45,072 nucleotides of DNA, taken from assembly GCA_012517855.1 (NCBI GenBank), contig JAAYUD010000070.1, positions 1 through 45,072 of the forward strand. The letters run 5' to 3'. The notes below the pieces were generated by a model. That model was not told where the DNA came from. It ran no database searches and worked only from the letters and a program-made list of their open reading frames with translations. This DNA comes from Bacteroidales bacterium. Lineage in GTDB: Bacteria; Bacteroidota; Bacteroidia; Bacteroidales; Bacteroidaceae. Below, in pieces: positions 11,482-42,216 of this stretch (position 1 is its first letter; each line of letters starts with the position of its first letter). The translations under genes were made by a program, and so were the position numbers.

Positions 11482-11556
11482 CTTCTGATCGGAAAAACTT
11501 TTTCTATTGTTATTGGTAAGTAAGATTCGTGTAATAAATTAAAATAGTATAAGATT

Positions 11557-12663
11557 ATGAAACGGAATATCAAGAAACTCACAACTCTAATTTTGGCAGT
11601 AAGTTTCTTTGCTTCGGCCCAAGCCGCGACATTGAAAGGGGGAGGGTATACTTCAAAGGATGCTACCACAGCGATTAACGCATTTCACAAAACGTTTTAC
11701 AACCCAGAGATGAAACTATATGCCATTTCTTCCGATATGAAAGGAAGAGCTGCTATTTGGGTGCAAGCCATTTATTGGGATATGGCGATGAATGCTTACA
11801 AACGGACTAAAAGTCCTAAATACCGCCAGATGATAGAAGATATCTATCAAGGAGGCTATGAGCAATACGATAAATACAATTGGAATAATAATGTAGAATG
11901 GTTTATTTACGACGACATGATGTGGTGGATCATTTCTTTGGGAAGAGCCTACCAGCTAACAGGAGAACCTAAATACTTGGCACATGCTGCCGCAGGGTTT
12001 TATCATGTTTGGAAAGAAGGTTATGATACCGAACGGGGAGGTATGTGGTGGAATTTCAAACATGATGCCAAGATGTCGTGTATCAATTATCCGACAGTTG
12101 TCGGTGCGATGACTCTTTTTGAAATAACTCGGGATAGCGATTATCTGCAAAAAGCGGAAAATCTGTATGAATGGTCACGAAAAGTGTTTTTCAATCGTTC
12201 GACGGGATGCGTAGCAGACAATATGCATTACCATTTTCAACGCCCTAATGGTATGGATATCGATTGGACTGCCCAACTTTATAATCAAGGAACATTTATA
12301 GGCTCAGCTACTATGCTTTATAAGGCGACTCAAAAGAAATCATACCTAAATGACGCTATTTTGGCGGCAAACTATGTGCGTTATACCATGTGCGATAAAA
12401 ATGGACTGTTGCCATATAAAGATGGTATAGAACAGGGTATTTATGCTGCTATTTTCGGACAATATATGGTGCGTCTTGTAGAAGATGCTCATCAACCACA
12501 ATACCTCGAATGGTTGCGCTATAATATCAAAACGGCATGGAACAATCGAGACATGCAGCGCGATATTACGTACAAAAATGCTGCTATCGCTTGTCCGAAA
12601 GGAGTGATGGAAAGCTATGATGCGAGTGCTTGTCCTGCATTAATGCAGCTTATATTGCCATAA
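11557..12663 (+). CDS. GH76 family alpha-1,6-mannanase-like glycoside hydrolase
   Basis: Secreted 368-residue protein resembling glycoside hydrolase family 76, whose members are endo-acting alpha-1,6-mannanases on fungal mannan backbones. A type I signal peptide ends near residue 23 (ASAQA|ATL), suggesting a periplasmic enzyme. The (alpha/alpha)6 barrel pattern can be followed through repeated aromatic helices. The hallmark adjacent aspartates are in YDDMMWW (Asp119-Asp120), the catalytic pair in this family. Length is normal for a single-domain GH76. It starts 75 bases after the HTCS stop on the same strand and may be read through from it. It is the only clue to the substrate of the first locus. 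Confidence 0.88.
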   Translation: MKRNIKKLTTLILAVSFFASAQAATLKGGGYTSKDATTAINAFHKTFYNPEMKLYAISSDMKGRAAIWVQAIYWDMAMNAYKRTKSPKYRQMIEDIYQGGYEQYDKYNWNNNVEWFIYDDMMWWIISLGRAYQLTGEPKYLAHAAAGFYHVWKEGYDTERGGMWWNFKHDAKMSCINYPTVVGAMTLFEITRDSDYLQKAENLYEWSRKVFFNRSTGCVADNMHYHFQRPNGMDIDWTAQLYNQGTFIGSATMLYKATQKKSYLNDAILAANYVRYTMCDKNGLLPYKDGIEQGIYAAIFGQYMVRLVEDAHQPQYLEWLRYNIKTAWNNRDMQRDITYKNAAIACPKGVMESYDASACPALMQLILP

Positions 12664-12796
12664 GTGCAATATACCGAAGGCATAAAATGACGATTAGGAT
12701 GTTTCTTGTTCAAATAGAGAAATCCCTAATGCGACGACGTAGCTGGCGACTTGCATAATTGACTTATTAGTATTGTTGGTCATAGTGTACAAAAAA

Positions 12797-12828
12797 AATC
12801 AGCCGGAACTTAAAAGCTCCGGCTGATT
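12797..12828 (-). terminator. Rho-independent terminator of pnp
   Basis: On the minus strand a stem with arms AATCAGCCGGA and TCCGGCTGATT (plus positions 12797-12807 and 12818-12828) and a 10-base loop is followed by a run of T. It lies about 40 bases after the pnp stop. No separate terminator for the convergent GH76 gene was seen. Confidence 0.9.
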
Positions 12829-12869
12829 ATATTTATATCTCATCGCAAGTTGATGCGGACGATTATTAC

Positions 12870-15125
12870 TTAGTCCTTATTTTCATCTTCCTGATGAGTA
12901 CGAGGTCCATCATTTCTTCTTGGCCCGTGATTACTATATTCGCCACGAGGTCTGCGTTCTCTTTCGGGAGCTTCGGGCATTCCTTCGGGACGAGGAAGCA
13001 ATACTTTGCGAGAAAGTTTGAATTTGCCTGTCTTTGGATCAATATCGAGTAGCTTGACATCAATATCGTCACCTTCCTTAAGACCGGCTTCCTCTACTGT
13101 TTCAAGACGTTTCCAATCTATCTCGGAGATGTGGAGTAAACCATCTTTTCCAGGTAAGAATTCAACAAAAGCACCATAAGGCATGATTGAACGGATTTTG
13201 CCTCTGTATACTTCTCCAACTTCAGGAACAGCAACAATCCCTTTAATCATTTTGACGGCTTCCTCAATACTCTGTTTGTTGACTGCCGAGATTTCAATCT
13301 TTCCGGTATTGCCTTCTTCTTCAATAGAGATATTGGCACCGGTCTTTTCTTGTAGACCTTGAATAATCTTACCGCCCGGGCCTATTACAGCTCCAATAAA
13401 CTCTTTTGGAATGATTAAGTTTTCAATACGTGGTGCGTGATCTTTGAGGTCTGTGTGAGGTTCTGGAATTACTTCGAGAATTTTGCCCAATATGTATTCG
13501 CGTCCTTGTTTGGCTTGCATTAATGCTTTTTCCAAAATTTCAAAACTAAGTCCGTCGCATTTGATATCCATCTGTGTAGCTGTCAATCCATTGCAAGTAC
13601 CTGTTGTCTTGAAATCCATGTCACCAAGGTGGTCTTCATCACCCATTATATCGGAGAGAATAGCGTATTTGTCTTCTCCCGGGTTTTTGATAAGTCCCAT
13701 GGCAATACCCGAAACCGGCTTTTTGATAGGGACACCTGCATCCATCAGTGCCATTGTTCCGGCACAAACAGTAGCCATTGAAGAAGAACCATTTGATTCC
13801 AATATATCTGATACAATGCGGACTACATACGGATAATTTTTAGGGATCATACGTTTCAAAGCTCGGTGAGCTAAGTTTCCGTGTCCTATTTCACGACGGC
13901 CTACGCCACGTTGTGATTTGGCTTCGCCTGTACAGAAAGGAGGAAAGTTGTAGTGCAATAAGAAACGCTCTTTGCTCTGGTCGAGCACGTTGTCGATTTG
14001 CTTTTCGTCGTCTTTGGTACCCAAGGTAACCGAAGTTAGCGACTGAGTTTCGCCACGGGTGAAGATAGCCGAGCCGTGAGGGCCTGGAAGGTAACCGACT
14101 TCGCCCCAGATAGGACGGATCTCGTTTGGAGTACGTCCGTCAAGGCGCTTGCCTTCGTCAAGGATGCAGCGCCGCATAGCTTCGCGTTCTACGTCAGAGT
14201 AGTAGCGGTCTATCAGGGCATTTTTCTCTGCAAGTTCCTCTTCAGAAAGGTTTTCTTTATTTGCTTCGTTGTATTTTTCTTTGAATTCGTCGCGGATAGC
14301 ATGGAACGCATCTTCTCTTTCGTGCTTGCTTTTGTCACCTGCTTCAACAATTGCATAGCACTTGGGGTAGGTGGCGTCGTGAAGTTCTTTGCGAAGATCT
14401 TCGTCGTTTATTTCGTCGCTATATTCGCGCTTTTTAGTAGAACCTACTTCTTCTGCCAGCTCCATTTGGGCTTTGCACTGCGCTTTGATAGATTCATGAG
14501 CTACTTTCATTGCTTCGAGCAATTCTGCTTCAGAGCATTCATCCATTTCGCCTTCTACCATCATGATATTGTCGTAAGTAGCACCTACCATAATATCCAT
14601 ATCGGCTTTGGCCAATTGATCGAAAGTAGGATCAACGACGTATTTACCGTCAACTCGAGCAACACGTACTTCAGAGATAGGCCCTTCAAAAGGAATATCC
14701 GATACTGCGAGAGCGGCCGAAGCTGCTAGTCCGGCCAATGCATCCGGTACATCGACACCGTCTGCCGAGAAAAGAATAATATTAACGTATACTTCGCAGT
14801 GATAATCTGCTGGGAATAATGGGCGAAGAGCACGGTCTACTAGTCGACACGTAAGTATCTCGTAGTCGGATGCTCTACCTTCACGTTTGGTAAAACCGCC
14901 TGGAAAGCGGCCAAAAGCTGCGAACTTTTCTCTGTACTCTACCTGTAACGGCATGAAATCTGTTCCGGGAACTGCCTCTTTAGCGGCACAAACAGTAGCT
15001 AACAACATGGTTTTGCCCAAGGTTAGCATAACAGCACCATCTGCCTGTTTTGCCAATTTTCCCGTCTCGAGTTTGATGGTTCTACCATCACTTAACTCGA
15101 TTGTTTTAACAATCGGTTTGATCAT
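12870..15125 (-). CDS. pnp: Polyribonucleotide nucleotidyltransferase (PNPase)
   Basis: Core RNA-decay enzyme that phosphorolyses RNA 3' to 5' and can also polymerise NDPs. At 751 residues it is slightly longer than the usual 700-720. Domain order: first RNase PH domain (about 1-140, with [20 protein letters not shown]), helical linker, second RNase PH domain (about 330-560, with [28 protein letters not shown] and [16 protein letters not shown], the metal and phosphate sites), KH domain ([19 protein letters not shown]), S1 domain ([18 protein letters not shown]). The C-terminal tail is rich in Arg, Pro and acidic residues, as in Bacteroidetes PNPases. A TATCTTTG box sits about 40 bases upstream and a strong terminator follows. 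Confidence 0.98.
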
Positions 15126-15160
15126 AAAAAATATTTAATCTATTTCGTCTAAAATTGACG

Positions 15161-15168
15161 CAAAGATA
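15161..15168 (-). promoter_or_regulatory. Promoter -7 box of pnp
   Basis: On the minus strand TATCTTTG matches the Bacteroides -7 consensus TAnnTTTG and lies about 36 bases upstream of the pnp start codon. The -33 element is poor. Confidence 0.6.
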
Positions 15169-15251
15169 CATAATATTCGTCCAATTTGGTGTAAATGAGA
15201 TAAAAAAGTTTGATTAAAATACTTTTTTAAGTAAATGCCGGGGTAAAACTG

Positions 15252-15281
15252 TTTGAATAAATATGAAAAGCAGTATATTTG
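15252..15281 (+). promoter_or_regulatory. Bacteroides-type promoter of the thioredoxin-like gene
   Basis: TTTG at 15252-15255 and TATATTTG at 15274-15281, separated by 18 bases, match the -33/-7 consensus of the Bacteroides primary sigma factor. The start codon of the downstream gene follows 22 bases later. Confidence 0.65.
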
Positions 15282-15303
15282 CGTTCTAAAATAACAATGA
15301 CAA

Positions 15304-16458
15304 ATGATGAAGAAGATAATTTGTGCCTCAATAGTCGTGTTGGCTTTATGTGCTTGTAATTCAAAGTCTAAATTTAATATTCAAGGCGAAGTAGCCGGCG
15401 CGGACGGAAAGACTATTTATTTTGAATCGTCGGGTTTGGAAAGCATCGTACCACTTGATTCAGCCAAATTGAAAGGAGACGGTTCGTTTGAATTCAGCGG
15501 TAAGCGTCCTGAATCTCCAGAATTTTATAGGTTAAGAATCGGCGATAAAATTATCAATCTTTCTATAGATTCTACAGAAACGGTTACTGTCAAGACTCAA
15601 TACGGCAATTTTTCTACAAATTATTCTGTGCAAGGTTCAGCCAATTGTACGAAAATAAAAGAACTTACGTTGAAACAAATTCAACTGCAAAATATTGTCG
15701 ATTCATTGGCGAAGGCTGTTCAAACCGGAGTTATCACTAACGATATTTACGAAGCCAAAGTAAATGATTTGATGAAGCGCTATAAGGATGATGTGAAATT
15801 GAATTATATTTTTGCTCATCCGGACGCTACTTATGCTTACTTTGCTTTGTTTCAAAAGTTGAACAATTATTTGATCTTTGATCCGTTGAATAGCAAGGAA
15901 GATATCAAATGTTTCGGGGCGGTGGCAACCAGCTTGGATATAAAGTACCCTAACTCTGAACGTTCTAAAAATCTATATAATATAGTTATAAAGGGAATGA
16001 GGAATACTCATGCTCCTCATCAAAAAGTGCTTGAAATACCCAAAAATAAGGTCCAGGAGGCTGGCGTTATCGATATTAGTCTAAGAGATCTTCATGGCAA
16101 TATTCAACGTCTCACTTCGTTGAAAGGTAAAGTCGTGTTGCTTGATTTTACTGTTTATCAGAGCGCTGTTGCCGCTCCTCATAATTTGAAGCTTCGCGAG
16201 CTATATAAAAAGTATGCTTCCAGTGGTCTCCAAATCTATCAGGTTTCGCTTGATGCTGATGAACATTTCTGGAAAACCTCTGCCGACAATTTGCCATGGA
16301 TCTGTGTACGCGATGAAAATGGCGTCAATTCGAGCATTGCCAATCTATATAATGTGAAGAAGATACCAACCTTCTTCTTGATAAACCGCAACAACGAATT
16401 GAAAGCAAATAGCAATAATATTAAGAATCTAGAGGCGGCTATCAAAGCTTTACTTTAA
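15304..16458 (+). CDS. TlpA/thioredoxin-like lipoprotein lacking the CXXC redox site
   Basis: Lipoprotein of 384 residues with the layout common in Bacteroidetes: lipobox ALCAC at about residue 18, a DUF4369-like N-terminal beta domain (about 23-115, FNIQGEVAGADGKTIYFES), a helical linker, and a C-terminal thioredoxin/AhpC-TSA-like domain (about 250-384, LKGKVVLLDF to IPTFFLINRNNEL). In relatives the strand LLDFxA is followed by WCxxC, the thiol-disulfide exchange site. Here the same place reads TVYQSAVAAPHN (about 285-296) with no cysteine. The cis-proline loop (KKIPTFF) is kept. It therefore cannot do ordinary thiol-disulfide exchange and may be a binding or structural relative. It has its own promoter and stands alone. 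Confidence 0.85.
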   Translation: MMKKIICASIVVLALCACNSKSKFNIQGEVAGADGKTIYFESSGLESIVPLDSAKLKGDGSFEFSGKRPESPEFYRLRIGDKIINLSIDSTETVTVKTQYGNFSTNYSVQGSANCTKIKELTLKQIQLQNIVDSLAKAVQTGVITNDIYEAKVNDLMKRYKDDVKLNYIFAHPDATYAYFALFQKLNNYLIFDPLNSKEDIKCFGAVATSLDIKYPNSERSKNLYNIVIKGMRNTHAPHQKVLEIPKNKVQEAGVIDISLRDLHGNIQRLTSLKGKVVLLDFTVYQSAVAAPHNLKLRELYKKYASSGLQIYQVSLDADEHFWKTSADNLPWICVRDENGVNSSIANLYNVKKIPTFFLINRNNELKANSNNIKNLEAAIKALL

Positions 16459-31785: not shown

Positions 31786-31990
31786 TTCATATATAGCAAA
31801 CTGCTGAGGTGCAACTTCTTTACAAACTTACAAACAATGAAAACCAACTTTAAGTGCACCTATACTATATGTGGAAGCCTATTTAAGATAGTAAAAACAA
31901 GGGAGTAGATATAAATTGTTCATTTATGGTCACAAAGGCAATAATTTGATTTTTTTTAAGTACTTTTACAAGGTCAAATATTTATCCATT

Positions 31991-34819
31991 ATGGCAGTAC
32001 AAAACGAAGCAGCACTAGAAAGTGGACTTATAGCGACTCTTAAATCTATGAACTATGAGTATGTTCAAATTGATGAAGAAACTAACCTAAAAGCCAACTT
32101 CAAGAAGCAGCTGGGAATACATAATAAAAAGCAATTAGCAGAATTTGGACGTACCGAGTTTACCGATTCGGAATTCGAAAAGATCTTGATTTATCTCGAA
32201 GGTAGTACTCGTTTTGAAAAAGCCAAGAAACTAAGAGACTTATATCCACTTGCAACCGAAGATGGTAAACGAATTTGGGTTGAGTTTCTAAATCGTACAC
32301 ATTGGTGTCAGAACGAATTTCAGGTTTCTAATCAAATCACAATTGAGGGGCGAAAAAGATGTCGATATGATGTTACTCTCCTTATTAATGGACTTCCTTT
32401 GGTTCAGATTGAACTAAAGAGAAGAGGCGTTGAGCTAAAACAGGCATATAACCAAATACAAAGGTATCATAAGACATCTTTTCATGGGCTATTCGACTAC
32501 ATTCAGTTGTTTGTTATATCTAATGGCGTGAATACTCGATATTTTGCCAACAATCCCAATAGTGGCTATAAATTCACTTTCAATTGGACAGATGCTGCCA
32601 ATATTCCATTTAATGAGTTGGAAAGATTTGCGGCATTCTTCTTTGATAAATGTACTCTTGGTAAACTGATAAGCAAATATATCGTTTTGCATGAAGGTGA
32701 CAAATGCCTCATGGTGCTTCGTCCATACCAATATTATGCAGTAGAAAAGATTCTTGATAGAGTTGAGAACTCTAACGACAACGGCTATATCTGGCATACT
32801 ACAGGCGCGGGCAAAACCCTGACTTCGTTCAAGGCAGCCCAATTGGTATCCGAATTACCCGACGTAGATAAGGTTATGTTTGTTGTGGATCGTCACGACC
32901 TCGATACGCAAACTCAATCAGAGTATGAAGCGTTTGAACCAGGTGCAGTAGATGGAACAGATGATACAAACGAATTGGTGAAACGGCTGTCAGGTACCTC
33001 AAAAATTATCATCACTACTATTCAGAAACTCAACACCGCTGTAACAAAGATTTGGTACAGTAACAAAATAGATGTAATACGCAATTCCCGTATCGTAATG
33101 ATATTCGATGAATGTCACCGCAGCCATTTCGGTGATAGTCACCAGAATATCGAAAAGTTCTTTCATAACACGCAGATGTTTGGATTTACGGGGACACCGA
33201 TATTTGTAGAGAATGCAGTTGACAATCATACAACCAAAGAAATATTCGGAAATTGTCTACATCAGTATCTTATAAAAGATGCCATTGCAGATGAAAATGT
33301 GTTAGGTTTCCTTGTAGAGTATTATAAAGGCAACGAAGAAGTAAATAAAACGAATGATGATAGAATGCACGAAATTGCAAAGTTCATTCTCAACAACTTC
33401 AACAAATCAACTTTCGATGGAGAGTTTGATGCTCTTTTTGCCGTACAATCCGTACCGATGCTTATTCGCTATTATAAGATATTCAAGGAATTAAAGCCTG
33501 ATATTCGCATTGGCGCTGTGTTTACTTATGCTGCAAATAGTAGTCAGGACGATGACTATACAGGCATGAACAAAGGATTCGTAAGTGAAAGTGTTGGCGA
33601 AGCAGATGACTTGCAAGAAATCATGGATGATTATAATAGAATGTACGGAACAGCCTTTAACCAAGAGAATTTCCGTGCATATTATGATGATATAAACTTA
33701 CGCATGAAGAAGAAACGTGCCGATATGAAATCATTGGATTTATGTCTGGTGGTCGGTATGTTCCTTACAGGATTCGATTCTAAGAAATTGAATACTCTTT
33801 ATGTTGATAAGAATATGGAATATCATGGATTGTTACAGGCATTCAGCCGTACAAATCGTGTGTTGAATGAAAAGAAACGTTTTGGTAAGATTGTATGTTT
33901 TCGCGATTTGAAGAGCAATGTTGATTCTGCTATCAAGTTGTTCAGTAATAGCAATAATGTTGAGGATATTGTTCGCCCTCCTTTTGAAAAGGTGAAGAAA
34001 GAATATGTAGAATTGGCAACGTATTTCATGAAGAAATATCCAGAGCCAAGCAGCATTGATTCACTTCAAAGTGAGAATGATAAGAAAGACTTCATAATCG
34101 CATTTCGTGATATCATCAAGAAGCATGCAGAGATTCAGATTTACGAAGATTATAATGAAGATGCTTCCGATTTAGGTATCATAGAACAACAGTTCATGGA
34201 TTTCCGAAGTAAGTATCTTGATATTTATGAAGGATTTACTGAACCAAACGGAGGCAGTTCAACTTTTATTGATCTAGAACCACCAACTGACCCTGACGAA
34301 CCACGTATTGAGGATATTGACTTTTGCTTGGAATTGCTCCATAGCGACATTATAAATGTAGCTTATATTCTTGAGCTCATTGCCAATTTAAATCCTTACA
34401 GTGAGGACTACGAAACCAAACGTAGAGAAATTATCGATACAATGATCAAGGATGCCGAATTGCGTGGCAAAGCTAAGTTGATTGATGGCTTCATTCAGAA
34501 GAATGTGGATGAAGATCGAGACAACTTCATGGATAATAAGCAAAAGGCAGATGGTAGTTCAGATTTGGAAGAACGATTGAACAATTATATTTCAGAAGAA
34601 CGTGTCAAGGCTATTACATTCGTTGCACAGGAAGAAGAACTCAATGTGAATGTGCTAAACCACTATTTGTCAGAATATGATTATCTCCAGAAAGAGCAAC
34701 CCGAAATTATTCAAAAAGCATTAAAAGAGAAGCATTTAGGTCTGAGCACACGTCGCAAAACACTAGATAGGATCTTAAGCAAGATGCGTTCTATTATTAA
34801 AACTTTTAGTTGGAACTAA
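31991..34819 (+). CDS. hsdR: Type I restriction enzyme R subunit (HsdR)
   Basis: Motor and nuclease subunit of a type I restriction-modification enzyme, about 942 residues from the ATG at 31991. An upstream ATG-like start at 31916 would add 25 residues with no family match, and a TACTTTTA box at 31961-31968 suits the later start. Domain order: N-terminal HSDR nuclease domain with the PD-(D/E)XK residues Asp127, Glu141 and Lys143 (RYDV, IELKRRG), then the SF2 translocase with Walker A Gly272-Thr276 (TTGAGKT), DECHRS from Asp373, GFTGTP, and a second RecA domain with GMFLTGFDSKKLNTLYVDK and QAFSRTNR. A helical C-terminus should bind the methylase core. It is first in the operon with three unusual genes before hsdM. 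Confidence 0.95.
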   Translation: MAVQNEAALESGLIATLKSMNYEYVQIDEETNLKANFKKQLGIHNKKQLAEFGRTEFTDSEFEKILIYLEGSTRFEKAKKLRDLYPLATEDGKRIWVEFLNRTHWCQNEFQVSNQITIEGRKRCRYDVTLLINGLPLVQIELKRRGVELKQAYNQIQRYHKTSFHGLFDYIQLFVISNGVNTRYFANNPNSGYKFTFNWTDAANIPFNELERFAAFFFDKCTLGKLISKYIVLHEGDKCLMVLRPYQYYAVEKILDRVENSNDNGYIWHTTGAGKTLTSFKAAQLVSELPDVDKVMFVVDRHDLDTQTQSEYEAFEPGAVDGTDDTNELVKRLSGTSKIIITTIQKLNTAVTKIWYSNKIDVIRNSRIVMIFDECHRSHFGDSHQNIEKFFHNTQMFGFTGTPIFVENAVDNHTTKEIFGNCLHQYLIKDAIADENVLGFLVEYYKGNEEVNKTNDDRMHEIAKFILNNFNKSTFDGEFDALFAVQSVPMLIRYYKIFKELKPDIRIGAVFTYAANSSQDDDYTGMNKGFVSESVGEADDLQEIMDDYNRMYGTAFNQENFRAYYDDINLRMKKKRADMKSLDLCLVVGMFLTGFDSKKLNTLYVDKNMEYHGLLQAFSRTNRVLNEKKRFGKIVCFRDLKSNVDSAIKLFSNSNNVEDIVRPPFEKVKKEYVELATYFMKKYPEPSSIDSLQSENDKKDFIIAFRDIIKKHAEIQIYEDYNEDASDLGIIEQQFMDFRSKYLDIYEGFTEPNGGSSTFIDLEPPTDPDEPRIEDIDFCLELLHSDIINVAYILELIANLNPYSEDYETKRREIIDTMIKDAELRGKAKLIDGFIQKNVDEDRDNFMDNKQKADGSSDLEERLNNYISEERVKAITFVAQEEELNVNVLNHYLSEYDYLQKEQPEIIQKALKEKHLGLSTRRKTLDRILSKMRSIIKTFSWN

Positions 34820-34831
34820 TTCTTCTAAAAT

Positions 34832-35752
34832 ATGAAATTAGGGAAATTAGAACAGATAACAGACCTTCGTTCTATCTGGAAGAATGAGGCAAAAGATTTT
34901 ACGCCATGGCTTGCTAAAGAAGAAAATCTAGCAACCTTAGGTGATGCTATTGGCATTGACATTGTGTTGGAAGAGACAGAATCAAATGTTGGCGATTTTA
35001 GTGTAGACCTATATGCAACAGAAGAAGGCTCAGAACGAAAAATCATCATAGAGAATCAGCTTGAAGAAACAAATCACGACCACCTGGGAAAGATAATAAC
35101 TTATGCATCAGGAAAAGACGCAGAAGTTATCATCTGGATTGTAAAAAAAGCTCGTGATGAACATAAACAAGCGATAGAATGGCTAAACCAGCACACGGAT
35201 GAACAGTTCGCATTTTTCTTAATAGAGATTGAACTTTGGAAAATCAATGATTCTGAACCTGCACCAAAATTCAACATCGTTGAACGTCCTAATGATTGGG
35301 CTAAGGCCATGAAGAAGAGTGCAAATCTTTCAGATACTGAGGATTTGGAATTATCTTTTTGGCAAAACTTTAATTCTAACGCTTCAAATCATACAGAGTT
35401 TTCAAAAAACTTTAAACTACGTAAACCGCAACCGCAACATTGGTATGATTTAAGTATTGGTTCATCAGCTTATCGCATTAGTTTAACTGTTAATACCCAA
35501 AAGAATCAACTATCTGCTGGTATTTACATTGATGATGACAAAGCAATTTATGAAAAATTCAAGGAAAATGAATCACTATTGGAATCTCTCTTAGGAAGTA
35601 AAATAGAATGGAGAGATGCTAAAAAATCATCACGCTTCTTTACGATTTCTTCATTTGATCTTGCGGAAAACGAGAATTGGTCAGATGCATTCAACTGGTA
35701 TTTTGACAAATGTCTAAGACTAAAACAAGTAATAATTAAAATGGGAGTTTAG
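34832..35752 (+). CDS. DUF4268 protein with PD-(D/E)XK-like N-terminal domain
   Basis: Cytoplasmic protein of 306 residues. The C-terminal half (about 185-306, with HWYDLSIGSSAYRISLTV and DDDKAIYEKFKENE) fits the DUF4268 family. The N-terminal half has a nuclease-like pattern: FSVDLYA (Asp59), then KIIIENQLEETNHDHLGKI (Glu74-Asn-Gln76). In many PD-(D/E)XK enzymes the last motif is ExK; Gln here is a known variation, so activity is uncertain. It starts 12 bases after hsdR and ends 3 bases before the deiminase-like gene, so it is part of the operon. It may be an accessory DNA-binding or cleaving factor of the restriction system. Confidence 0.75.
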   Translation: MKLGKLEQITDLRSIWKNEAKDFTPWLAKEENLATLGDAIGIDIVLEETESNVGDFSVDLYATEEGSERKIIIENQLEETNHDHLGKIITYASGKDAEVIIWIVKKARDEHKQAIEWLNQHTDEQFAFFLIEIELWKINDSEPAPKFNIVERPNDWAKAMKKSANLSDTEDLELSFWQNFNSNASNHTEFSKNFKLRKPQPQHWYDLSIGSSAYRISLTVNTQKNQLSAGIYIDDDKAIYEKFKENESLLESLLGSKIEWRDAKKSSRFFTISSFDLAENENWSDAFNWYFDKCLRLKQVIIKMGV

Positions 35753-35755
35753 AAC

Positions 35756-36640
35756 ATGATAGATAGTAAAACAAATATAGTATTCTTTTCAAGTCAACTA
35801 TCTGTCAATTACAGAAGTTGTAAGAAAGATATTTTGGAAGCACTTAAAGAACACGACATTCAAGTTGGAACGAATATTCGTGCTACCAAAGATATTTGGC
35901 CCCGTGATTATATGCCTATTCAAATCGACAAAAATCGCTTTGTACGATACAAGTATAATCCAGATTATCTCATTAAAGCAGGAATGTCTGCATATGTAAC
36001 AGACAAACCTAACTGTCCATTTTTAAAAGATAAAGATATTGTTGAATGCGACCTTGTTCTCGATGGTGGCAACATTGTTGTGAGCGGAAATAAAGTGATA
36101 TTAACTGAAAAAGTGTTCACAGAGAATAGCCCCTTATCTCAGTTTGAAATAACCAACCGAATTGAAAAAGCATTTGGTAAGCAAGTTATTTGGATTCCAT
36201 GCGACCCACATGAAATTGAATATGCAAAAGCAAATGACGAATTGCCTCTTTGCCATGCAGATGGTATTCTCCATGCAATAGACAAAGAAACGATATTGTT
36301 ATCAAACTATATCGATTATGACCCTGATTTTCGAGCAAACTTGCTTGAACGTCTAAGTCCTTACTTTAAAATTGAAGAATATTCTTTTGGTGATAAACGC
36401 AGTGACAACTCGTGGATATACATTAACTATCTCCAGATTGGCAAGGTCATTTTACTGCCAACAGTAGGTGAACCTGCTGATAATATGGCTTTAGAAAAGT
36501 TGAAATCATTATTTCATAATGACATAACTATTGAGAAAATAGATTCAAAAGAATTAACTTTTGATGCTGAAGATGGTAATGTGGGTGGTTCTCTTCACTG
36601 TATATCTTGGAATGTATATGATTCATTAATAACTAAATAG
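35756..36640 (+). CDS. Agmatine/peptidyl-arginine deiminase-like enzyme inside the restriction operon
   Basis: Protein of 294 residues resembling the PAD_porph/agmatine deiminase family, which hydrolyses guanidino groups to ureido groups and ammonia through a thiol. Visible motifs: WPRDYMP (Asp51), LDGGNIVVS (103-109), CHADGILH (His167, Asp169) and GGSLHCISWN (Cys282, the expected nucleophile). Family members are usually 340-370 residues, so this one is short. No signal peptide, so cytoplasmic. No agmatine or putrescine pathway gene is near; instead it lies 3 bases after the DUF4268 gene and 7 bases before a cysteine peptidase gene, between hsdR and hsdM. Whether the substrate is agmatine, a protein arginine or something else is unknown. 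Confidence 0.82.
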   Translation: MIDSKTNIVFFSSQLSVNYRSCKKDILEALKEHDIQVGTNIRATKDIWPRDYMPIQIDKNRFVRYKYNPDYLIKAGMSAYVTDKPNCPFLKDKDIVECDLVLDGGNIVVSGNKVILTEKVFTENSPLSQFEITNRIEKAFGKQVIWIPCDPHEIEYAKANDELPLCHADGILHAIDKETILLSNYIDYDPDFRANLLERLSPYFKIEEYSFGDKRSDNSWIYINYLQIGKVILLPTVGEPADNMALEKLKSLFHNDITIEKIDSKELTFDAEDGNVGGSLHCISWNVYDSLITK

Positions 36641-36647
36641 TAGCATT

Positions 36648-37304
36648 ATGATTAAGATTATTGAAGAGTTATTTCTTACAAAGAAGGGGTGCTGTATTAA
36701 AAACAGAACTGATAACCAAATACATATTAAACAAGGTGATATAGATGGAGCTTGTTCTGTTTATTCATTGATGATGTATCTTATGATAATAAAAGTCATA
36801 AAAAGAAATCAATTGAATGACCTATATAATACAATCAAAAAGTCACCTGAGGTAGAGAGTATCTTTCATGAGTTCTTTGATAAACATGGCTTGGTACGAG
36901 ATGGATTCTATTTTACGCAATTAAAGAAAATGTTGAATCGAATATCTATTGATTCAATCTTTGCAAGGAGTTTCGATGAAGATAGCGATGAGTTCATAAA
37001 AGATGGTTTTATCGAACAGATAAAAAGTACACTTGATACTGACACACCAATAATGGTTGGCATAGATTATAAAGGTGGAGGTGCTCACGCTGTATTAGCA
37101 ATAGGATATGAAGCCGATGAAGATGGCATATTTAATCTATTCTGTCTTGACCCTGGATATGATTGTAATCCAACTTCATATTGGAATATGGTCATAACAT
37201 TAAATACGATGCAAGGGAGATACAAACATCAGTGCTTAACGTCAAATCCCTATTATTGCCCAGCAATTAAAATATCGGAAACATTATTGATAACAAAGAA
37301 ATAA
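36648..37304 (+). CDS. Papain/C39-like cysteine peptidase-like protein
   Basis: Protein of 218 residues with the layout of a papain-fold cysteine peptidase of the C39-like group. Candidate triad: Cys36 in GDIDGACSVYSLMMYL, His147 in GGGAHAVLAIGYE and Asp168 in LFCLDPGYD. A glutamine for the oxyanion hole may be Gln29. No signal peptide or membrane segment. It lies 7 bases after the deiminase-like gene and 4 bases before hsdM, so the two thiol enzymes and the DUF4268 protein form a tight block inside the restriction operon. It might cleave or process a partner, for example the deiminase-like protein, or act on host targets; this is speculation. The protease call itself rests on motifs only. 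Confidence 0.65.
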   Translation: MIKIIEELFLTKKGCCIKNRTDNQIHIKQGDIDGACSVYSLMMYLMIIKVIKRNQLNDLYNTIKKSPEVESIFHEFFDKHGLVRDGFYFTQLKKMLNRISIDSIFARSFDEDSDEFIKDGFIEQIKSTLDTDTPIMVGIDYKGGGAHAVLAIGYEADEDGIFNLFCLDPGYDCNPTSYWNMVITLNTMQGRYKHQCLTSNPYYCPAIKISETLLITKK

Positions 37305-37308
37305 TATA

Positions 37309-38865
37309 ATGAGCGAAGAATTACAACAAAAACTCCGTACTCAACTATGGACGGTAGCCAATAACCTGCGTGGAAATATGTCGGCGAGCGACTTCATGTA
37401 TTTTACGCTCGGTTTTATATTCTATAAATACTTGTCAGAGAAGATTGAAACTTTCGCCGATAAGGCTTTGGAAGATGATGAAATCACCTTCAAGGATTTG
37501 TGGCAAAAGACAGATGCTGGTTCTCTTGAATTACAGGAAGATGTAAAGAAGGAGTGCATGGAAAACATCGGCTACTTTGTTGAGCCAAGCTTCTTGTTCT
37601 CTTCTATTATTGAAGGAATCAATTGCAAAGAAAACATTCTCCCTATTCTTGAACGTTCATTGAAACGTATCGAAGATAGTACTCTCGGTCACGATAGTGA
37701 AGAAGATTTTGGTGGTCTATTCTCTGATATTGATTTAGCTTCTCCAAAACTTGGTAAATCATCAGATGACAAGAATCAATTGATTAGTAACGTCCTTATT
37801 GCGCTCAACGAAATTGAGTTTGGAGCAGATGCCGCTACTCAGATTGACGTACTGGGCGATGCTTATGAATATATGATTGGCCAATTCGCTGCGGGTGCCG
37901 GCAAAAAGGCCGGTGAATTCTACACACCACAGGAAGTCAGTCAGATACTTGCTGAGATTGTTACCACAGGCCAAAAACGTTTGCGTAATGTGTATGACCC
38001 TACTTGTGGAAGTGGCTCACTGTTGATACGAGCGGCTCACACAGGTAATGCAGCCGAGATTTTTGGTCAAGAGAAGAATCCAACCACTTACAATTTGGCT
38101 CGTATGAATATGTTACTTCACGGCATCAAATTCAGCAACTTCAAAATAGAGAATGGCGATACACTCGAAGCTGATGCCTTTGGCGAAACACAGTTCGATG
38201 CAGTGGTAGCGAATCCTCCTTTCTCGGCCGAATGGAGTGCATCGGAAGAAAAATTCAACAACGATGATCGCTTTAGCAAAGCAGGTCGTCTTGCTCCTAA
38301 GAAAACTGCCGACTACGCCTTTATTCTTCACATGATTTATCACCTCAATGATGGTGGCACAATGGCTTGCGTTGCTCCTCACGGTGTACTCTTCCGTGGA
38401 AATGCCGAAGGTGTTATACGTCGTTTCCTCATTGAGAAGAAGAATTATATTGATGCTATTATCGGTCTGCCTGCCAATATTTTCTATGGTACAAGTATTC
38501 CTACCTGTATTCTAGTAATGAAGAAATGTCGTAAGGAAGATGATAATATTCTGTTCATTGACGCAAGCAAAGAGTTTGATAAAGTTAAGACTCAAAATAA
38601 GTTACGCCCTGATCATATCCAAAAGATTATTGATACTTATCGCCATCGTACCGAGATAGAAAAATATAGCCATCTTGCCACAATGCAAGAAATTGTTGAG
38701 AACGATTACAATCTAAACATACCTCGTTACGTTGATACTTTTGAAGAGGAAGAACCCATCGATATCAAGGCTGTCATGAGTGAGATTAAAAGCCTTGAAG
38801 CCAAACGTGCAGAGCTCGACGTTGAGATTGAAGGTTATTTGAAAGAATTAGGATTGGTCGATTAA
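37309..38865 (+). CDS. hsdM: Type I DNA methyltransferase M subunit (HsdM)
   Basis: Adenine-N6 methyltransferase subunit of 518 residues, normal length. N-terminal helical HsdM_N domain (about 5-150, LWTVANNLRGNMSASDFMYF). The methylase domain has motif I DPTCGSGSLL from Asp230, which binds S-adenosylmethionine, and motif IV NPPF at 302-305, the catalytic site for N6-adenine. A C-terminal coiled coil (AVMSEIKSLEAKRAELDVEI) should pack with HsdS. It works with HsdS as the modification complex and with HsdR for restriction. It starts 4 bases after the peptidase-like gene and is followed by an ORF6N gene. Confidence 0.97.
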   Translation: MSEELQQKLRTQLWTVANNLRGNMSASDFMYFTLGFIFYKYLSEKIETFADKALEDDEITFKDLWQKTDAGSLELQEDVKKECMENIGYFVEPSFLFSSIIEGINCKENILPILERSLKRIEDSTLGHDSEEDFGGLFSDIDLASPKLGKSSDDKNQLISNVLIALNEIEFGADAATQIDVLGDAYEYMIGQFAAGAGKKAGEFYTPQEVSQILAEIVTTGQKRLRNVYDPTCGSGSLLIRAAHTGNAAEIFGQEKNPTTYNLARMNMLLHGIKFSNFKIENGDTLEADAFGETQFDAVVANPPFSAEWSASEEKFNNDDRFSKAGRLAPKKTADYAFILHMIYHLNDGGTMACVAPHGVLFRGNAEGVIRRFLIEKKNYIDAIIGLPANIFYGTSIPTCILVMKKCRKEDDNILFIDASKEFDKVKTQNKLRPDHIQKIIDTYRHRTEIEKYSHLATMQEIVENDYNLNIPRYVDTFEEEEPIDIKAVMSEIKSLEAKRAELDVEIEGYLKELGLVD

Positions 38866-38877
38866 TTGTAATTGGTT

Positions 38878-39825
38878 ATGATTATGAGCGAAAGCAAGAA
38901 TAATACAACAGACATCCAACCGGTTGCAGATTGTGACCAGTTAAGGAATACGATTCAAATCGAAGGACGCATCTTATCAACCAGAAACATGCAGGTTATG
39001 GTTGACAGAGATTTGGCAGAGCTTTATGGTGTTGAAACTAAAGTCCTGAATCAGGCAGTAAAGCGTAATATTGAGCGATTCCCTGAACGATTCAGATTTC
39101 AACTCTCAGATAATGAGATGACTGAACTGGTCACAAATTGTGACCGGTTCGAGAGCTTAAAGCATTCTTCTGTGTGTCCGTATGTCTTTACTGAACAAGG
39201 CGTAGCGATGTTATCTTCTGTCCTTCATAGTGAAACAGCGATTTCTGTCAGCATTCAGATTATGGATGCTTTTGTCGCAATGCGTCGCTTTCTTGTAAGT
39301 AATGCCCAAGTATTCAAGCGTCTTGAGACAATAGAATACCATCAACTAGCCATGCAACAGCATCAACAGCAATCAGACAAACTCATCGACGAGATTTTTA
39401 AGAAGTTTGAAGAAAAAGAAGCCACCAATCAATATATATTCTTTGATGGGCAAGTATTCGATGCCTATGTATTTATCTCTGGCCTTATAAAAGCAGCAAA
39501 GACTTCAATAATCCTTATCGATAATTATATAGATGAAACGGTGCTCACAATGCTTGGAAAAAGAGCCTCCGGCGTAGATGCAATTATCTATACAGCGCAA
39601 ATCAGCAGGCAATTACGTCTTGATGTTGATCGTCATAATGCCCAATATCCACCTATTAGTATAAATATATTCCGTCAGTCTCATGACCGATTTATGATAA
39701 TCGACAATGATGTTTATCATATTGGTGCATCTATAAAAGATTTGGGCAAGAAATGGTTTGGTATCACATTGATGAAAGATATAACACCTTCAGAAATAGT
39801 AAATCGAATCAATGGAGTTATTTAA
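38878..39825 (+). CDS. ORF6N-domain DNA-binding protein with HKD-like C-terminus
   Basis: Protein of about 315 residues. I prefer the ATG at 38878 (a second lies at 38884) over the TTG at 38872. The N-terminus (about 25-115, LSTRNMQVMVDRDLAELYGV, RFPERFRFQLS, PYVFTEQGVAMLSSVL) is an ORF6N domain, a DNA-binding module common in phage and mobile-element proteins. A short coiled region (HHQ-rich, about 155-180) leads to a C-terminal domain with HDRFMIIDNDVYHIGAS (from about His269) that resembles a single degenerate phospholipase-D HxK motif with Arg in place of Lys. Proteins of this type often sit between hsdM and hsdS. It is 12 bases after hsdM. Its role is unknown. Confidence 0.82.
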   Translation: MIMSESKNNTTDIQPVADCDQLRNTIQIEGRILSTRNMQVMVDRDLAELYGVETKVLNQAVKRNIERFPERFRFQLSDNEMTELVTNCDRFESLKHSSVCPYVFTEQGVAMLSSVLHSETAISVSIQIMDAFVAMRRFLVSNAQVFKRLETIEYHQLAMQQHQQQSDKLIDEIFKKFEEKEATNQYIFFDGQVFDAYVFISGLIKAAKTSIILIDNYIDETVLTMLGKRASGVDAIIYTAQISRQLRLDVDRHNAQYPPISINIFRQSHDRFMIIDNDVYHIGASIKDLGKKWFGITLMKDITPSEIVNRINGVI

Positions 39826-39889: not shown

Positions 39890-41092
39890 ATGATTATGGC
39901 AAATAATAACAAAAATATAGTCCTCAATGTTCCAACTCTGAGATTCCCTGAGTTTGGTGGAGAATGGAAAAAGTGTAATTTGGGTGATATCTGTTCTTTC
40001 TTTTCAGGAGGGACACCGTCTTCTTCAAATAAAGAATATTACGATGGTGTTATTCCATTTATTCGTTCAGGGGAAATACATTCGAAAAAAACAGAGTTAT
40101 TTATATCAGAAGAAGGATATCGAAATTCAACAACAAAGATGGTACAAACAGGTGATTTGTTAATGGCTATTTATGGTGCAACAAGCGGTGATATTGCTAT
40201 TGGCAAGATTGATGGTGCTATCAATCAAGCAATATTATGTTTGCGTACGGTCGAAAATAAGATGTTTATAAAATCAGTATGGCAAAAGCACGTAAATAAA
40301 ATTCTCTTAACATACCTTCAAGGAGGACAAGGAAACTTATCGGCTGAAATAGTGAAAAAGATTTCAATCAATATTCCTGAATATTCAAAAGAACAGGAGA
40401 AACTGGCATCGCTTATGAGTCTAATTGATGAGCGTATTTCAACCCAAAACAAAATCATTGAGGACATGAGAAAACTAAAGTCGGCAATTATTAAAAGAAT
40501 TTTTAGTGTTGAGTATTTATGTCAGCGTCGAAAAATTCTATTGTCTGACATTTCTTTAAAAATAACGAAAAAGAATACGGATAATAAAATAACCAACGTC
40601 CTGAGTAATTCAGCCAATCAGGGAATAGTATCACAAGAAATAATCTTTGATAGAGAAATTGCCAATAAGGAAAATACCAGCGGATATTATATTATCAAAT
40701 GTGGTGATTTCGTTTATAATCCGCGCAAATCTACAGCCGCTCCGTATGGACCAATTAATAAATATGAAGGTTCTATTGATGGTATCATTTCTCCTTTATA
40801 TGTCTGCTTTAGCACCCAAAATATCAATAGGAATTATTTATATTGGTATTTCCAAAGTAAAGCATGGTATAAATACATTTACAAGAATGGAGACACAGGG
40901 ACACGACATGACAGAGTAAGTATTAAAGATGATATTTTTTTTGCTATGCCATTATACATACACAATCCTGTTGAACAACAAAGCATTTCAAAAAATCTAA
41001 GTAAAATTGAGCTAAAGATAACAATAGAAGAACACCAACTCGAATTGCTTTTCCAGCAGAAAACATATTTACTTCAGCAAATGTTTATATGA
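39890..41092 (+). CDS. hsdS: Type I specificity subunit (HsdS), expressed orientation
   Basis: HsdS of 400 residues that chooses the DNA target for the methylase and nuclease. Two target-recognition domains: about 12-160 (RFPEFGGEWKKCNLGDICSF to NLSAEIVKKISINIP) and about 210-370 (LLSDISLKITKKN to ISIKDDIFFAMPLYIHN), each followed by a conserved helix (EQEKLASLMSLIDERISTQ and EQQSISKNLSKIELKI). It is in the operon direction and 64 bases after the ORF6N gene. Its 5' end (39926-39978) is repeated in reverse at 42217-42269, and 40440-40461 in the central helix is repeated in reverse at 41716-41737. The gene is thus one half of an invertible pair with the cassette at 41085-42284. Confidence 0.95.
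   Translation: MIMANNNKNIVLNVPTLRFPEFGGEWKKCNLGDICSFFSGGTPSSSNKEYYDGVIPFIRSGEIHSKKTELFISEEGYRNSTTKMVQTGDLLMAIYGATSGDIAIGKIDGAINQAILCLRTVENKMFIKSVWQKHVNKILLTYLQGGQGNLSAEIVKKISINIPEYSKEQEKLASLMSLIDERISTQNKIIEDMRKLKSAIIKRIFSVEYLCQRRKILLSDISLKITKKNTDNKITNVLSNSANQGIVSQEIIFDREIANKENTSGYYIIKCGDFVYNPRKSTAAPYGPINKYEGSIDGIISPLYVCFSTQNINRNYLYWYFQSKAWYKYIYKNGDTGTRHDRVSIKDDIFFAMPLYIHNPVEQQSISKNLSKIELKITIEEHQLELLFQQKTYLLQQMFI
39926..39978 (+). repeat. Inverted repeat, left arm of the hsdS switch
   Basis: Fifty-three bases beginning AATGTTCCAACTC and ending AAAAAGTGTAA, in codons 13-30 of hsdS. They are perfectly repeated in reverse at 42217-42269. Another ten bases inward match at eight positions. This is the expected crossover site for inverting the segment between them. 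Confidence 0.95.
40440..40461 (+). repeat. Internal inverted repeat of hsdS, left copy
   Basis: Twenty-two bases (CAACCCAAAACAAAATC then ATTGA) encode part of the STQNKIIE central helix. A perfect reverse copy lies at 41716-41737 in the silent cassette. Both are in the same codon phase, so a crossover here would exchange the second recognition domains without breaking the frame. Confidence 0.85.
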
Positions 41093-41112
41093 ACATATGC
41101 TGAAGTAAATAT
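41065..41112. repeat. Palindrome where the two hsdS 3' ends meet
   Basis: Arms ATATTTACTTCAGCAAATGTT (41065-41085) and its reverse complement with one mismatch (41092-41112) around a 6-base centre. It encodes the shared C-terminus YLLQxMFI of both hsdS genes, whose stop codons overlap here. It may also act as a bidirectional terminator. Confidence 0.85.
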
Positions 41113-41715
41113 TGCTTTTGCTTTTTATAGTTATTGAGCAATTTATTGTTTGTGGCTATCTTGTACTGTATGGAACTTAAAAGAGAAGCAACATTTTTGA
41201 TTTCTTCTGTATTGTTAGGCAGTATTACCGTATTGTCAAGAAAATGTTGATTTGTAATGTTAATCGTATTCTTTGCTCCTTTTTGAATTAGGGGATGAAG
41301 ATAATTATTTGTATTGTTACAATTCATAAAATAGTAATGCAGTATGGTGCCAATATATTTATTTTCAGGCATATATACCCCGTATAGAGGGGAAACAGCA
41401 ACATTCTCGATAATCATACTTTGCTTCACGATACCATATGGAAATTCACCTGTGGGGCTTTTCGTATAAACAATATCGCCATTCTTCACAACATGATAAT
41501 TTGATGTGTCTTCTGCGGCAAATGAACGTCCCAAATACCCAATTTGGTTGACAATACCATGGCTTACTGAAACTGAGTGAACCTCATAATTGTCTTTGTT
41601 CTTTTCTTTTCGCTCCGTTAAGACCTCTGTTAGATACACTTTTTGCCAAGTATTATCTTTTAACCCTATCAACTGCAAATTTAAACAAAGTCCTTTAATT
41701 AAGGATTCTAACCTG

Positions 41716-41737
41716 TCAATGATTTTGTTTTGGGTTG
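41716..41737 (-). repeat. Internal inverted repeat of hsdS, right copy
   Basis: Perfect reverse copy of 40440-40461, inside the central helix of the silent cassette (IATQNKIID). See the left copy for the frame argument. Confidence 0.85.
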
Positions 41738-42216
41738 CGATACGTTCATCAAACTTGGATAACAATGTAGATATCTTTGATTGTTCTTCTTTATTAGTTA
41801 AATACAATGGATAACTTGAATACTCTTGTGAGTTAATACCTGGTTGGCCAGAACGTGCAGACATAATAGTAATCCATTTTCTATAATTGGTTGTATGAAG
41901 TTGGCTAAAAATGAAATATGGATTATCATTTGGAATATTTATACGAATAAGAAATCCTGCAAAATATAGGCAGCCATCTTTAGATTTATATAGATAAGAT
42001 TTTCCTGTACTTGCACCTGTTCGAGCTAATAAAATATCATTATCTTTAACAAGATAAAAATCTTGCAATATAGCATCAGGCGAAACGACATCATTATAAG
42101 AATATTCTGATGATGACTCATTTATATCTGTTATTCGAATATATTTATTATTGCCATCAAATGGTTTTGCAGCTGCATTCATTCCATAATCAAATCCAGT
42201 TGCAACATCACCTAAT

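Follow-up and report, generated by a model that had tools for sequence, protein, structure and literature searches.

Two accessory enzyme families, a papain-like peptidase and a guanidine deiminase, share an exchangeable cargo slot in a Bacteroidales type I restriction operon

Introduction

Why does a type I restriction-modification operon carry genes for a deiminase and a cysteine peptidase between hsdR and hsdM? The question is raised by contig JAAYUD010000070.1 of a Bacteroidales bacterium (assembly GCA_012517855.1), of which the whole stretch analysed, 45,072 nucleotides, is called the window in the following. An earlier note, made without database searches, had proposed that the deiminase and the peptidase of this operon form a pair which acts as a second defence layer. 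Our comparison with related loci leads to another description: the two enzymes are better seen as separate accessory families, independent of each other, that have entered a slot of the restriction operon whose contents are exchanged. In our best reading each of them would add to DNA restriction or serve as its back-up, by a chemistry that is so far putative.

PrrC-like accessory genes in restriction operons opened the study of defence against anti-restriction. Among the titles and abstracts listed by our searches of the open-licence literature, none describes a deiminase or a C39-like peptidase in phage defence or in type I operons; the available portion of PMC7159879 names neither a deiminase nor C39, and the available portion of PMC13060105 mentions deiminases in metabolism only. 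The association of the peptidase with hsdR and a deiminase of non-AguA type with swapping partners both look new.

An exchangeable slot between hsdR and hsdM

In the window a DUF4268 protein (34832-35752, 306 amino acids), a small PAD_porph-type guanidine deiminase (35756-36640, 294 amino acids) and a papain-like cysteine peptidase (36648-37304, 218 amino acids) are encoded in this order between hsdR (31994-34819, 941 amino acids from the ATG used; a longer frame from 31916 is also listed) and hsdM (37309-38865, 518 amino acids). All five genes lie on the plus strand. On re-deriving the coordinates we found the three inner genes intact and, as the earlier note had it, separated from hsdR, from each other and from hsdM by 12, 3, 7 and 4 bases.

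The same operon is present in Bacteroides timonensis (L066; loci are cited by our own numbers), where a blastn comparison showed the DUF4268 and deiminase genes to be missing and the peptidase gene to be kept. Positions 31953-34820 and 36647-39816 of the window align to this operon with 80% identity and meet there at a single point, leaving a clean 1,826-base difference, a plus-strand cassette at 34821-36646 that holds the DUF4268 and deiminase genes and has no counterpart at the B. timonensis site. On an IMG/VR contig (L143) a deiminase that is 67% identical to the one in the window stands alone between hsdR and hsdM. The peptidase occupies the hsdR-hsdM position without the deiminase in L066, L054, L067, L071 and others, from many Bacteroidales, and in L076 a DUF4268 gene is found 29 bases upstream of the peptidase with no deiminase, at a place where any upstream hsdR would fall past the contig start.

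A survey of the slot was seeded with HsdM and not with the cargo, and gave 15 matches in 249 genomes, the window's genome included. Contents were scored in the six of these loci that have a readable upstream hsdR: the slot held the trio of the window once, a T5orf172-domain protein twice, the peptidase once and a 23S_rRNA_IVP protein (124 amino acids) once, and it was empty once. A T5orf172 protein is encoded downstream of the peptidase in L067 and L085, the copy in L067 being the PADLOC candidate PDC-S57; we take the T5orf172 domain to be of the GIY-YIG kind. The junction of hsdR and hsdM is a slot for exchangeable accessory genes. Relatives of both enzymes occupy this position in other loci, those of the peptidase in several genera and that of the deiminase in one further locus (L143), and the genes are therefore more than chance. 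With PADLOC 2.0.0 neither the deiminase nor the peptidase of the window gave a match at E 0.1, nor did one relative of each (deiminase of L143, peptidase of L066) at E 0.001. A T5orf172-domain protein is the sole occupant of the hsdR-hsdM slot in L172 and L173.

Do the deiminase and the peptidase form one unit? Their genes are direct neighbours in the window and in L021, L070, L108, L110 and L147, where L070, L108 and L110 were found via the peptidase search only and the deiminase search alone yields the pair in the window, L021 and L147. In L087 one gene lies between the two. No hsd gene was seen on the available contig DNA of L087 or of the five other pair loci (the L147 contig stops inside the peptidase gene), and among the loci examined we did not find a second hsd operon with both enzymes. 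Because each gene occurs without the other in the hsdR-hsdM position, the pair is not obligate, and an obligate unit was excluded. The proposal that the peptidase activates or restrains the deiminase as one unit is not supported by these loci, the peptidase being alone in L066, L054, L067 and L071 and the deiminase alone in L143. What stands of the suggested second defence layer is the restriction locus, the intact active sites and the recurrence of the pair in five loci, but not the single unit. Among the loci examined the pair did not recur in any other restriction locus, which the earlier note had named as a ground for refutation; this applies to the pair as such and not to its members, each of which occurs singly in such loci.

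The peptidase and its neighbours

The structure model of the peptidase (pLDDT 92.1) has a papain fold. C36, H147 and D168, the residues named in the earlier note, are invariant in 46 of 46 sequences, and Q29 is present in at least 90% of the 46 and in 45 of 45 when L021 is left aside, whose peptidase has an arginine at the glutamine position. With the oxyanion glutamine, the cysteine, the histidine and the aspartate in place on the modelled papain fold, the protein is a papain-fold cysteine peptidase and a predicted protease. On the Pfam model Peptidase_C39_2 (PF13529) it scores 20.6 bits, below the gathering cut-off of 24. In VIA-align comparisons the model reached Z 12.3 against 9mdm (rmsd 3.9, 191 aligned); by Z score TDE_0362 (12.3), the phytochelatin synthase Alr0975 (12.2) and staphopain (12.0) are close, and papain-fold toxins nearby include the C-terminal domain of BtaeB (9jdd, Z 11.0), 9l5u (Z 10.8) and CdiA-CT (8ssk, Z 10.7). 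A kinship with UFM1 or ubiquitin proteases was considered and dropped: the match of ZUFSP in the PDB profile search was weak (E 0.0014), with designed repeat proteins in the top two ranks, and as for a link to UfSP, 5ejj (Z 10.2) was outscored by other papain folds, so that no claim is made.

A sequence pattern derived from eight peptidases was run against 84,980 species genomes and returned 75 loci, among them L083, L089 and L117, which are source places of pattern seeds. The immediate same-strand neighbour of the peptidase gene is hsdR in 22 of these loci (at most 130 bases away), hsdM or hsdS in four and a deiminase in three, and is none of these in 46. All 22 hsdR-adjoining peptidases fall within the 46 loci with a Bacteroidota title, counting in L069, which is labelled Saccharibacteria. 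As a control, 4 of the 322 other open reading frames of at least 150 amino acids in these same 46 loci adjoin hsdR. The gene order is hsdR-peptidase-hsdM in 14 cases, hsdR-peptidase-other in 5 and other-peptidase-hsdR in 3; since hsdR adjoins the peptidase across all three orders, it is the neighbour that stays constant. In a tree built from 81 distinct peptidases, 25 rows bear the hsdR label, which must have changed at least nine times on well-supported branches. The contig of L069, binned as Saccharibacteria, bears hsdR and a peptidase 58% identical to that of the window, and its label is probably a binning error.

Genes of other defence systems are present at some of the peptidase loci: ZacB and ZacC at L109, DrmD and a ZacB-like PLD protein at L106, mad8-like proteins with PP2C phosphatases at L087 and L088, an IIG/DrmMI-like enzyme at L112 and a DruE-like protein at L124. 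The L109 stretch at 8995-15928, from Pseudomonas pseudonitroreducens, reads peptidase, a gene for 392 amino acids, ZacB and ZacC in order. Relatives of the peptidase were detected in 6 of 150 related genomes at E 1e-3 and in 4 of 393 genomes of the order at E 1e-5 (window's genome included); on viral contigs there are two loci only.

The deiminase and its swappable partners

The deiminase of the window is a member of the superfamily described by PF04371 PAD_porph (70.6 bits, cut-off 25). On the AguA model TIGR03380 it scores 38.8 bits, the curated cut-off being 381.8, and an AguA-type polyamine enzyme was excluded on this score. The deiminase profile finds 6b10 in the PDB (E 8.5e-28), and the protein aligns with 2cmu, a putative peptidyl-arginine deiminase, and 3hvm, an agmatine deiminase. 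In an alignment of 19 proteins W48, D51, D103, H167, D169, N224 and C282 are invariant, which includes both residues singled out before, H167 and C282; D51, H167, D169 and C282 match the aligned positions in 2cmu and 3hvm. We assume for the cysteine, the histidine and the two aspartates the catalytic roles of the PF04371 guanidine site. Because the seven positions are invariant in the 19 aligned proteins, the guanidine site looks intact.

Relatives were found at E 1e-5 in 27 of 150 related genomes and, across the order, at E 1e-12 in 46 of 393 (window's genome included). For the analysis of gene neighbours we used 88 distinct deiminases with a core of at least 200 amino acids, after identical rows, short fragments and duplicate loci had been dropped. 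Under a loose rule a partner lies within two genes and 450 bases on either strand, restriction genes within 1,500 bases, and double labels are counted twice. By this rule a protein with the fold of human AAG is near in 33 cases and fused in 5 (in one of the five, L050, the deiminase frame is broken), an HNH protein is found in 7, a uracil-DNA glycosylase-like (UDG-like) protein in 3, the peptidase in 6, restriction genes in 4 (the label of L048 is weak, as a gene intervenes) and none of these in 32. Under a strict rule, which accepts only the immediate neighbour on the same strand within 250 bases, the numbers are 27 for AAG-fold, 6 for HNH, 3 for UDG-like, 6 for the peptidase, 2 for hsdR and 1 for hsdM. 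The deiminase adjoins the peptidase in 6 of 88 cases, far less often than an AAG-fold protein. In the loci read the neighbours are DNA or defence genes and the relatives do not sit in recognised polyamine pathways, where the earlier note would have seen a refutation. In L064, a fragment outside the 88, hsdR, AbiH and the deiminase are consecutive, and in L041, which is among the 32 without partner, a GmrSD-domain protein and a PLD protein flank the deiminase, each overlapping it by 4 bases.

The AAG-fold part gave no Pfam match, whether in a fused protein or in the two separate members compared. For the protein of L108 a model (pLDDT 86.5) aligned by VIA-align with seven human AAG entries at Z 9.3-10.6, the match to 1f4r having Z 10.6 over 139 aligned positions at rmsd 3.0, and the next unrelated row falls to Z 4.0. 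Judged by this model the partner has the AAG fold and is a putative glycosylase. All 18 AAG-fold proteins compared share E51 and Y53, which presumably correspond to E125 and Y127 of human AAG; one arginine is invariant as well (R116 in L108). The N-terminal domain of the fused deiminases, judged by eye, we take to resemble AAG. A profile search of the PDB with the AAG-fold domain did not find AAG, and a search of a viral library gave two matches at E <=0.001, both to uncharacterised giant-virus proteins.

Three of the HNH partners gave a profile that matches the restriction enzyme PacI (E 1.7e-13); three further ones match Pfam HNH under the cut-off only (E 0.0008 to 0.002). The profile of the three UDG-like partners, for which no Pfam family was found, matches 2l3f (E 2e-7), which is listed as uncharacterised and which we take to be a putative uracil-DNA glycosylase.

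How these partners are distributed was read from a tree of the 88 deiminases. Over its well-supported branches the AAG label must have changed 17 times or more, and closely related deiminases can have different partners (AAG in L198 and HNH in L204; AAG in L044 and UDG in L209). Taken jointly, the nine label groups require 34 changes, part of them to or from "none", against a mean of 44.6 after shuffling, and none of 200 shuffles was as low; because of this difference we conclude that partners are inherited for a time and then swapped. The five fusions of deiminase and AAG-fold protein form a single clade, and the window's deiminase groups with those of L143 and L070 (support 100/100). The deiminase is constant and its partners swap, the activities of the partners being predicted from fold or family.

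Some further arrangements at deiminase loci are recorded here as observations. L149-L152 and L154-L156 (IMG/VR) carry a separate phage-contig clade of deiminases, several of which adjoin proteins of about 240 amino acids with an APADG-like or SPADG-like motif; these proteins resemble, we presume, phosphatidylserine decarboxylase. On the Prevotella plasmid of L021, a WYL protein, a 3'-5' exonuclease and two DUF262 proteins are annotated consecutively at 16-20.6 kb, and a similar WYL/exonuclease/DUF262 row is seen by eye at 9.5-16.5 kb of L041, where the deiminase overlaps a DUF262/GmrSD gene. In L212-L214 and L219 a protein of 114 amino acids is encoded between the AAG-fold gene and the deiminase, and by eye a similar stretch is the N-terminus of the L021 deiminase.

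Remaining genes of the locus

The locus as a whole is a type I restriction-modification system with HsdR, HsdM and HsdS encoded together (Pfam, PADLOC, NCBIfam). HsdR contains the Pfam domains HSDR_N, SWI2_SNF2, T1R_D3 and EcoR124_C and scores 453.7 bits on TIGR00348 (cut-off 284.55); HsdM scores 458 bits on TIGR00497 (cut-off 242.75). The DUF4268 identity given earlier was borne out by PF14088 (E 2.7e-26), and the protein is the PADLOC candidate PDC-S11 (E 2e-119). A nuclease in its N-terminal part was not confirmed by phmmer against the PDB, which gave a single meaningless row (E 0.27). Between hsdM and hsdS lies a gene for an ORF6N protein (38872-39825, plus strand; Pfam), the PADLOC candidate PDC-S05. 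It is followed by hsdS (39890-41092, plus strand; Pfam Methylase_S, PADLOC Specificity_I) and by a second hsdS-like gene on the minus strand (41085-42182; Pfam, PADLOC), convergent with the first and overlapping it by 8 bases. These convergent overlapping genes look like an invertible specificity module, and the convergent pair (39890-42182) recurs in the relatives L066, L173, L174 and L176. In L054, L072 and L080 two genes of the same sizes (702 and 481 amino acids) lie between hsdM and hsdS, which is a second accessory position.

Discussion

Position in the operon, conserved active sites, exchange and statistical linkage to kinds of genes that attack DNA are the observations from which we start. 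We lean, with a little better than even confidence, to the reading that the two enzymes are cargo of the slot, the peptidase serving as a proteolytic second layer and the deiminase preparing a target for a partner, both in parallel and separately from each other. The peptidase would be a protease that is held by the restriction machinery or senses it, and that is freed when restriction engages or is blocked. The deiminase would ready its target for an AAG-fold, UDG-like or PacI-like HNH protein or for the restriction genes, and the model for this step would be BapA, which removes glucose from phage DNA ahead of the glycosylase Brig3. By this analogy the deiminase may hydrolyse a guanidino or amidino group, which could belong to modified phage DNA or else to an arginine in a protein that is bound to DNA or counters restriction, a proposal for the chemistry that we regard as tentative and well short of an even chance. 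Slightly more doubtful still is a broader version, in which the guanidine deiminase would be a general helper of DNA-destroying immunity in Bacteroidales. It would edit a guanidino or amidino group of phage DNA that is hypermodified, or deaminate a base, for a swappable attacker (an AAG-fold or UDG-like glycosylase, an HNH nuclease or type I restriction), and the restriction-linked papain-like protease would add a further layer; no defence system listed in our literature searches uses either class of enzyme in this way.

A profile of the AAG-fold domain gave 24 matches in the 150 genomes, of which 15 are at most 1.5 kb from a deiminase and one more lies beside a peptidase, with an expectation for random placement of about 0.0015 per pair (3 Mb genome). 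Several points weigh against our reading, beginning with this profile: it was seeded from genes adjoining deiminases or peptidases, which may inflate the linked share of these matches, and 9 of the 24 have no deiminase nearby. In the genome to which the window belongs, no AAG-fold match was found at E 1e-5, and the partner of the window's deiminase must therefore be the DUF4268 protein or the restriction enzyme. Foldseek returned no AAG among the best 50 matches listed (best E 1.2). As many as 32 of the 88 deiminases lack any scored partner, only 3 of them at an end of the contig DNA; the clade on phage contigs accounts for 7 of the 32, and a few sequences diverge strongly. On the side of the peptidase, 46 of 75 loci have no hsd or deiminase neighbour, in a clade of 13 Pseudomonas rows neither an hsd gene nor a deiminase occurs up to four genes away, and in several Bacteroidales loci (the L095-L104 group, L090-L092) neither adjoins the peptidase. 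Finally, we know of no guanidino or amidino modification of DNA in Bacteroides phages.

Other explanations start from the same data. The peptidase, perhaps also the deiminase, could be a latent toxin on the type I complex that, once a phage blocks restriction, is freed and halts the growth of the cell or kills it, as in the case of PrrC. We consider such a guard possible, though distinctly short of probable: the operon around the cargo is of type I and its HsdR has an EcoR124_C domain, much as PrrC lies inside a type IC locus (available portion of PMC12707154, here and below), and the toxins 9jdd, 8ssk and 9l5u are among the structural neighbours of the peptidase, but ordinary secreted proteases score equally well or higher, and a single guarded partner is insufficient given that Zac, Drm and DruE-like genes, too, are neighbours of the peptidase. 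That hsdR rather than hsdM is constant across the gene orders (14, 5 and 3) would also suit a built-in protease for restriction alleviation, which clips HsdR on the cell's own DNA in the role that ClpXP has in types IA and IB. Type IC differs in this respect and leaves room for a dedicated protease (PMC12707154); however, alleviation in type IC is ascribed to enzyme assembly, so that a protease is unnecessary (PMC12707154), and the peptidase is also present at loci of other systems and, without hsdR, beside the deiminase (L021, L070, L108, L110). We think this role unlikely.

The deiminase could instead be an enzymatic antitoxin that citrullinates a key arginine of its partner and so silences a DNA-damaging toxin, with the toxins swapping around it. 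The invariant arginine of the AAG-fold proteins would offer a target, the deiminase tree has one constant enzyme with interchangeable partners, and the partners are mostly upstream (20 of 27 AAG-fold, 4 of 6 HNH and 3 of 3 UDG-like genes that directly adjoin it); of the 20 AAG-fold genes upstream, 13 overlap the deiminase by at least 4 bases. The five fusions in one clade are poorly explained in this way, and L143 has the deiminase as its sole cargo although a type I enzyme, being protected by HsdM, can do without an antitoxin; we give the antitoxin only a small chance. Improbable, and more so than any of these, is a metabolic effector or bystander, that is, an agmatine or arginine deiminase which depletes a guanidino metabolite or is ordinary cargo. 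PF04371 membership, the kept catalytic positions and the 32 of 88 relatives without recognised partner are consistent with it, but the recognised neighbours are mostly DNA enzymes and the score on the AguA model is far under the cut-off.

Comparison with known systems

Two enzyme families without PADLOC match are now tied to DNA restriction by comparative evidence, and there is a real chance that the enzymes of the slot bring new chemistry. Should DNA, or a protein bound to it, prove to be what the deiminase edits, this would be a new immunity chemistry and would offer a candidate tool. Should the protease prove to guard restriction, the PrrC principle would extend to proteolysis.

The window's deiminase shares the superfamily and the catalytic residues with AguA and the PAD of Porphyromonas (PF04371), but it is shorter (core of about 280 amino acids), lies far under the AguA cut-off and has relatives that are often linked to DNA-attacking enzymes. 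Similarly, the peptidase has the papain fold and the Q-C-H-D active site of Peptidase C39_2 and of papain-like proteases such as Alr0975, staphopain and TDE_0362, whereas its family is stand-alone with about 215 amino acids, tied to restriction loci and below the Pfam C39_2 cut-off. The PADLOC candidates PDC-S11 (DUF4268), PDC-S05 (ORF6N) and PDC-S57 (T5orf172) are likewise accessory genes within type I operons, and two of them are present in the window; unlike these, its deiminase and peptidase match no PADLOC model.

With respect to the partners of the deiminase the closest likeness is the two-gene operon brig3-bapA, in which BapA strips glucose from modified cytosine and the glycosylase Brig3 then excises the base (available portion of PMC13160076). 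The authors liken the core of Brig3 to human AAG and propose its origin from uracil glycosylases (same portion of PMC13160076), and a uracil-glycosylase ancestry has been proposed for Brig1 (available portion of PMC11078745). The relatives with deiminase and AAG-fold protein would likewise form a two-gene module of a glycosylase and an enzyme that prepares the base; an AAG-fold gene is near or fused to the deiminase gene in 38 of 88 relatives. In contrast, BapA is a glucosyl hydrolase and the second enzyme here is a deiminase, and the window itself has no glycosylase gene beside it.

For the position in the operon the comparison is PrrC, a tRNA anticodon nuclease embedded in the type IC locus EcoprrI (available portion of PMC12707154). 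The cargo of the window is embedded in a type I operon in the same manner, and in both cases an accessory enzyme gene within the operon is proposed to provide a second layer upon failure of restriction; whereas PrrC is an anticodon nuclease, the operon in the window brings a papain-like protease and a deiminase to this place.

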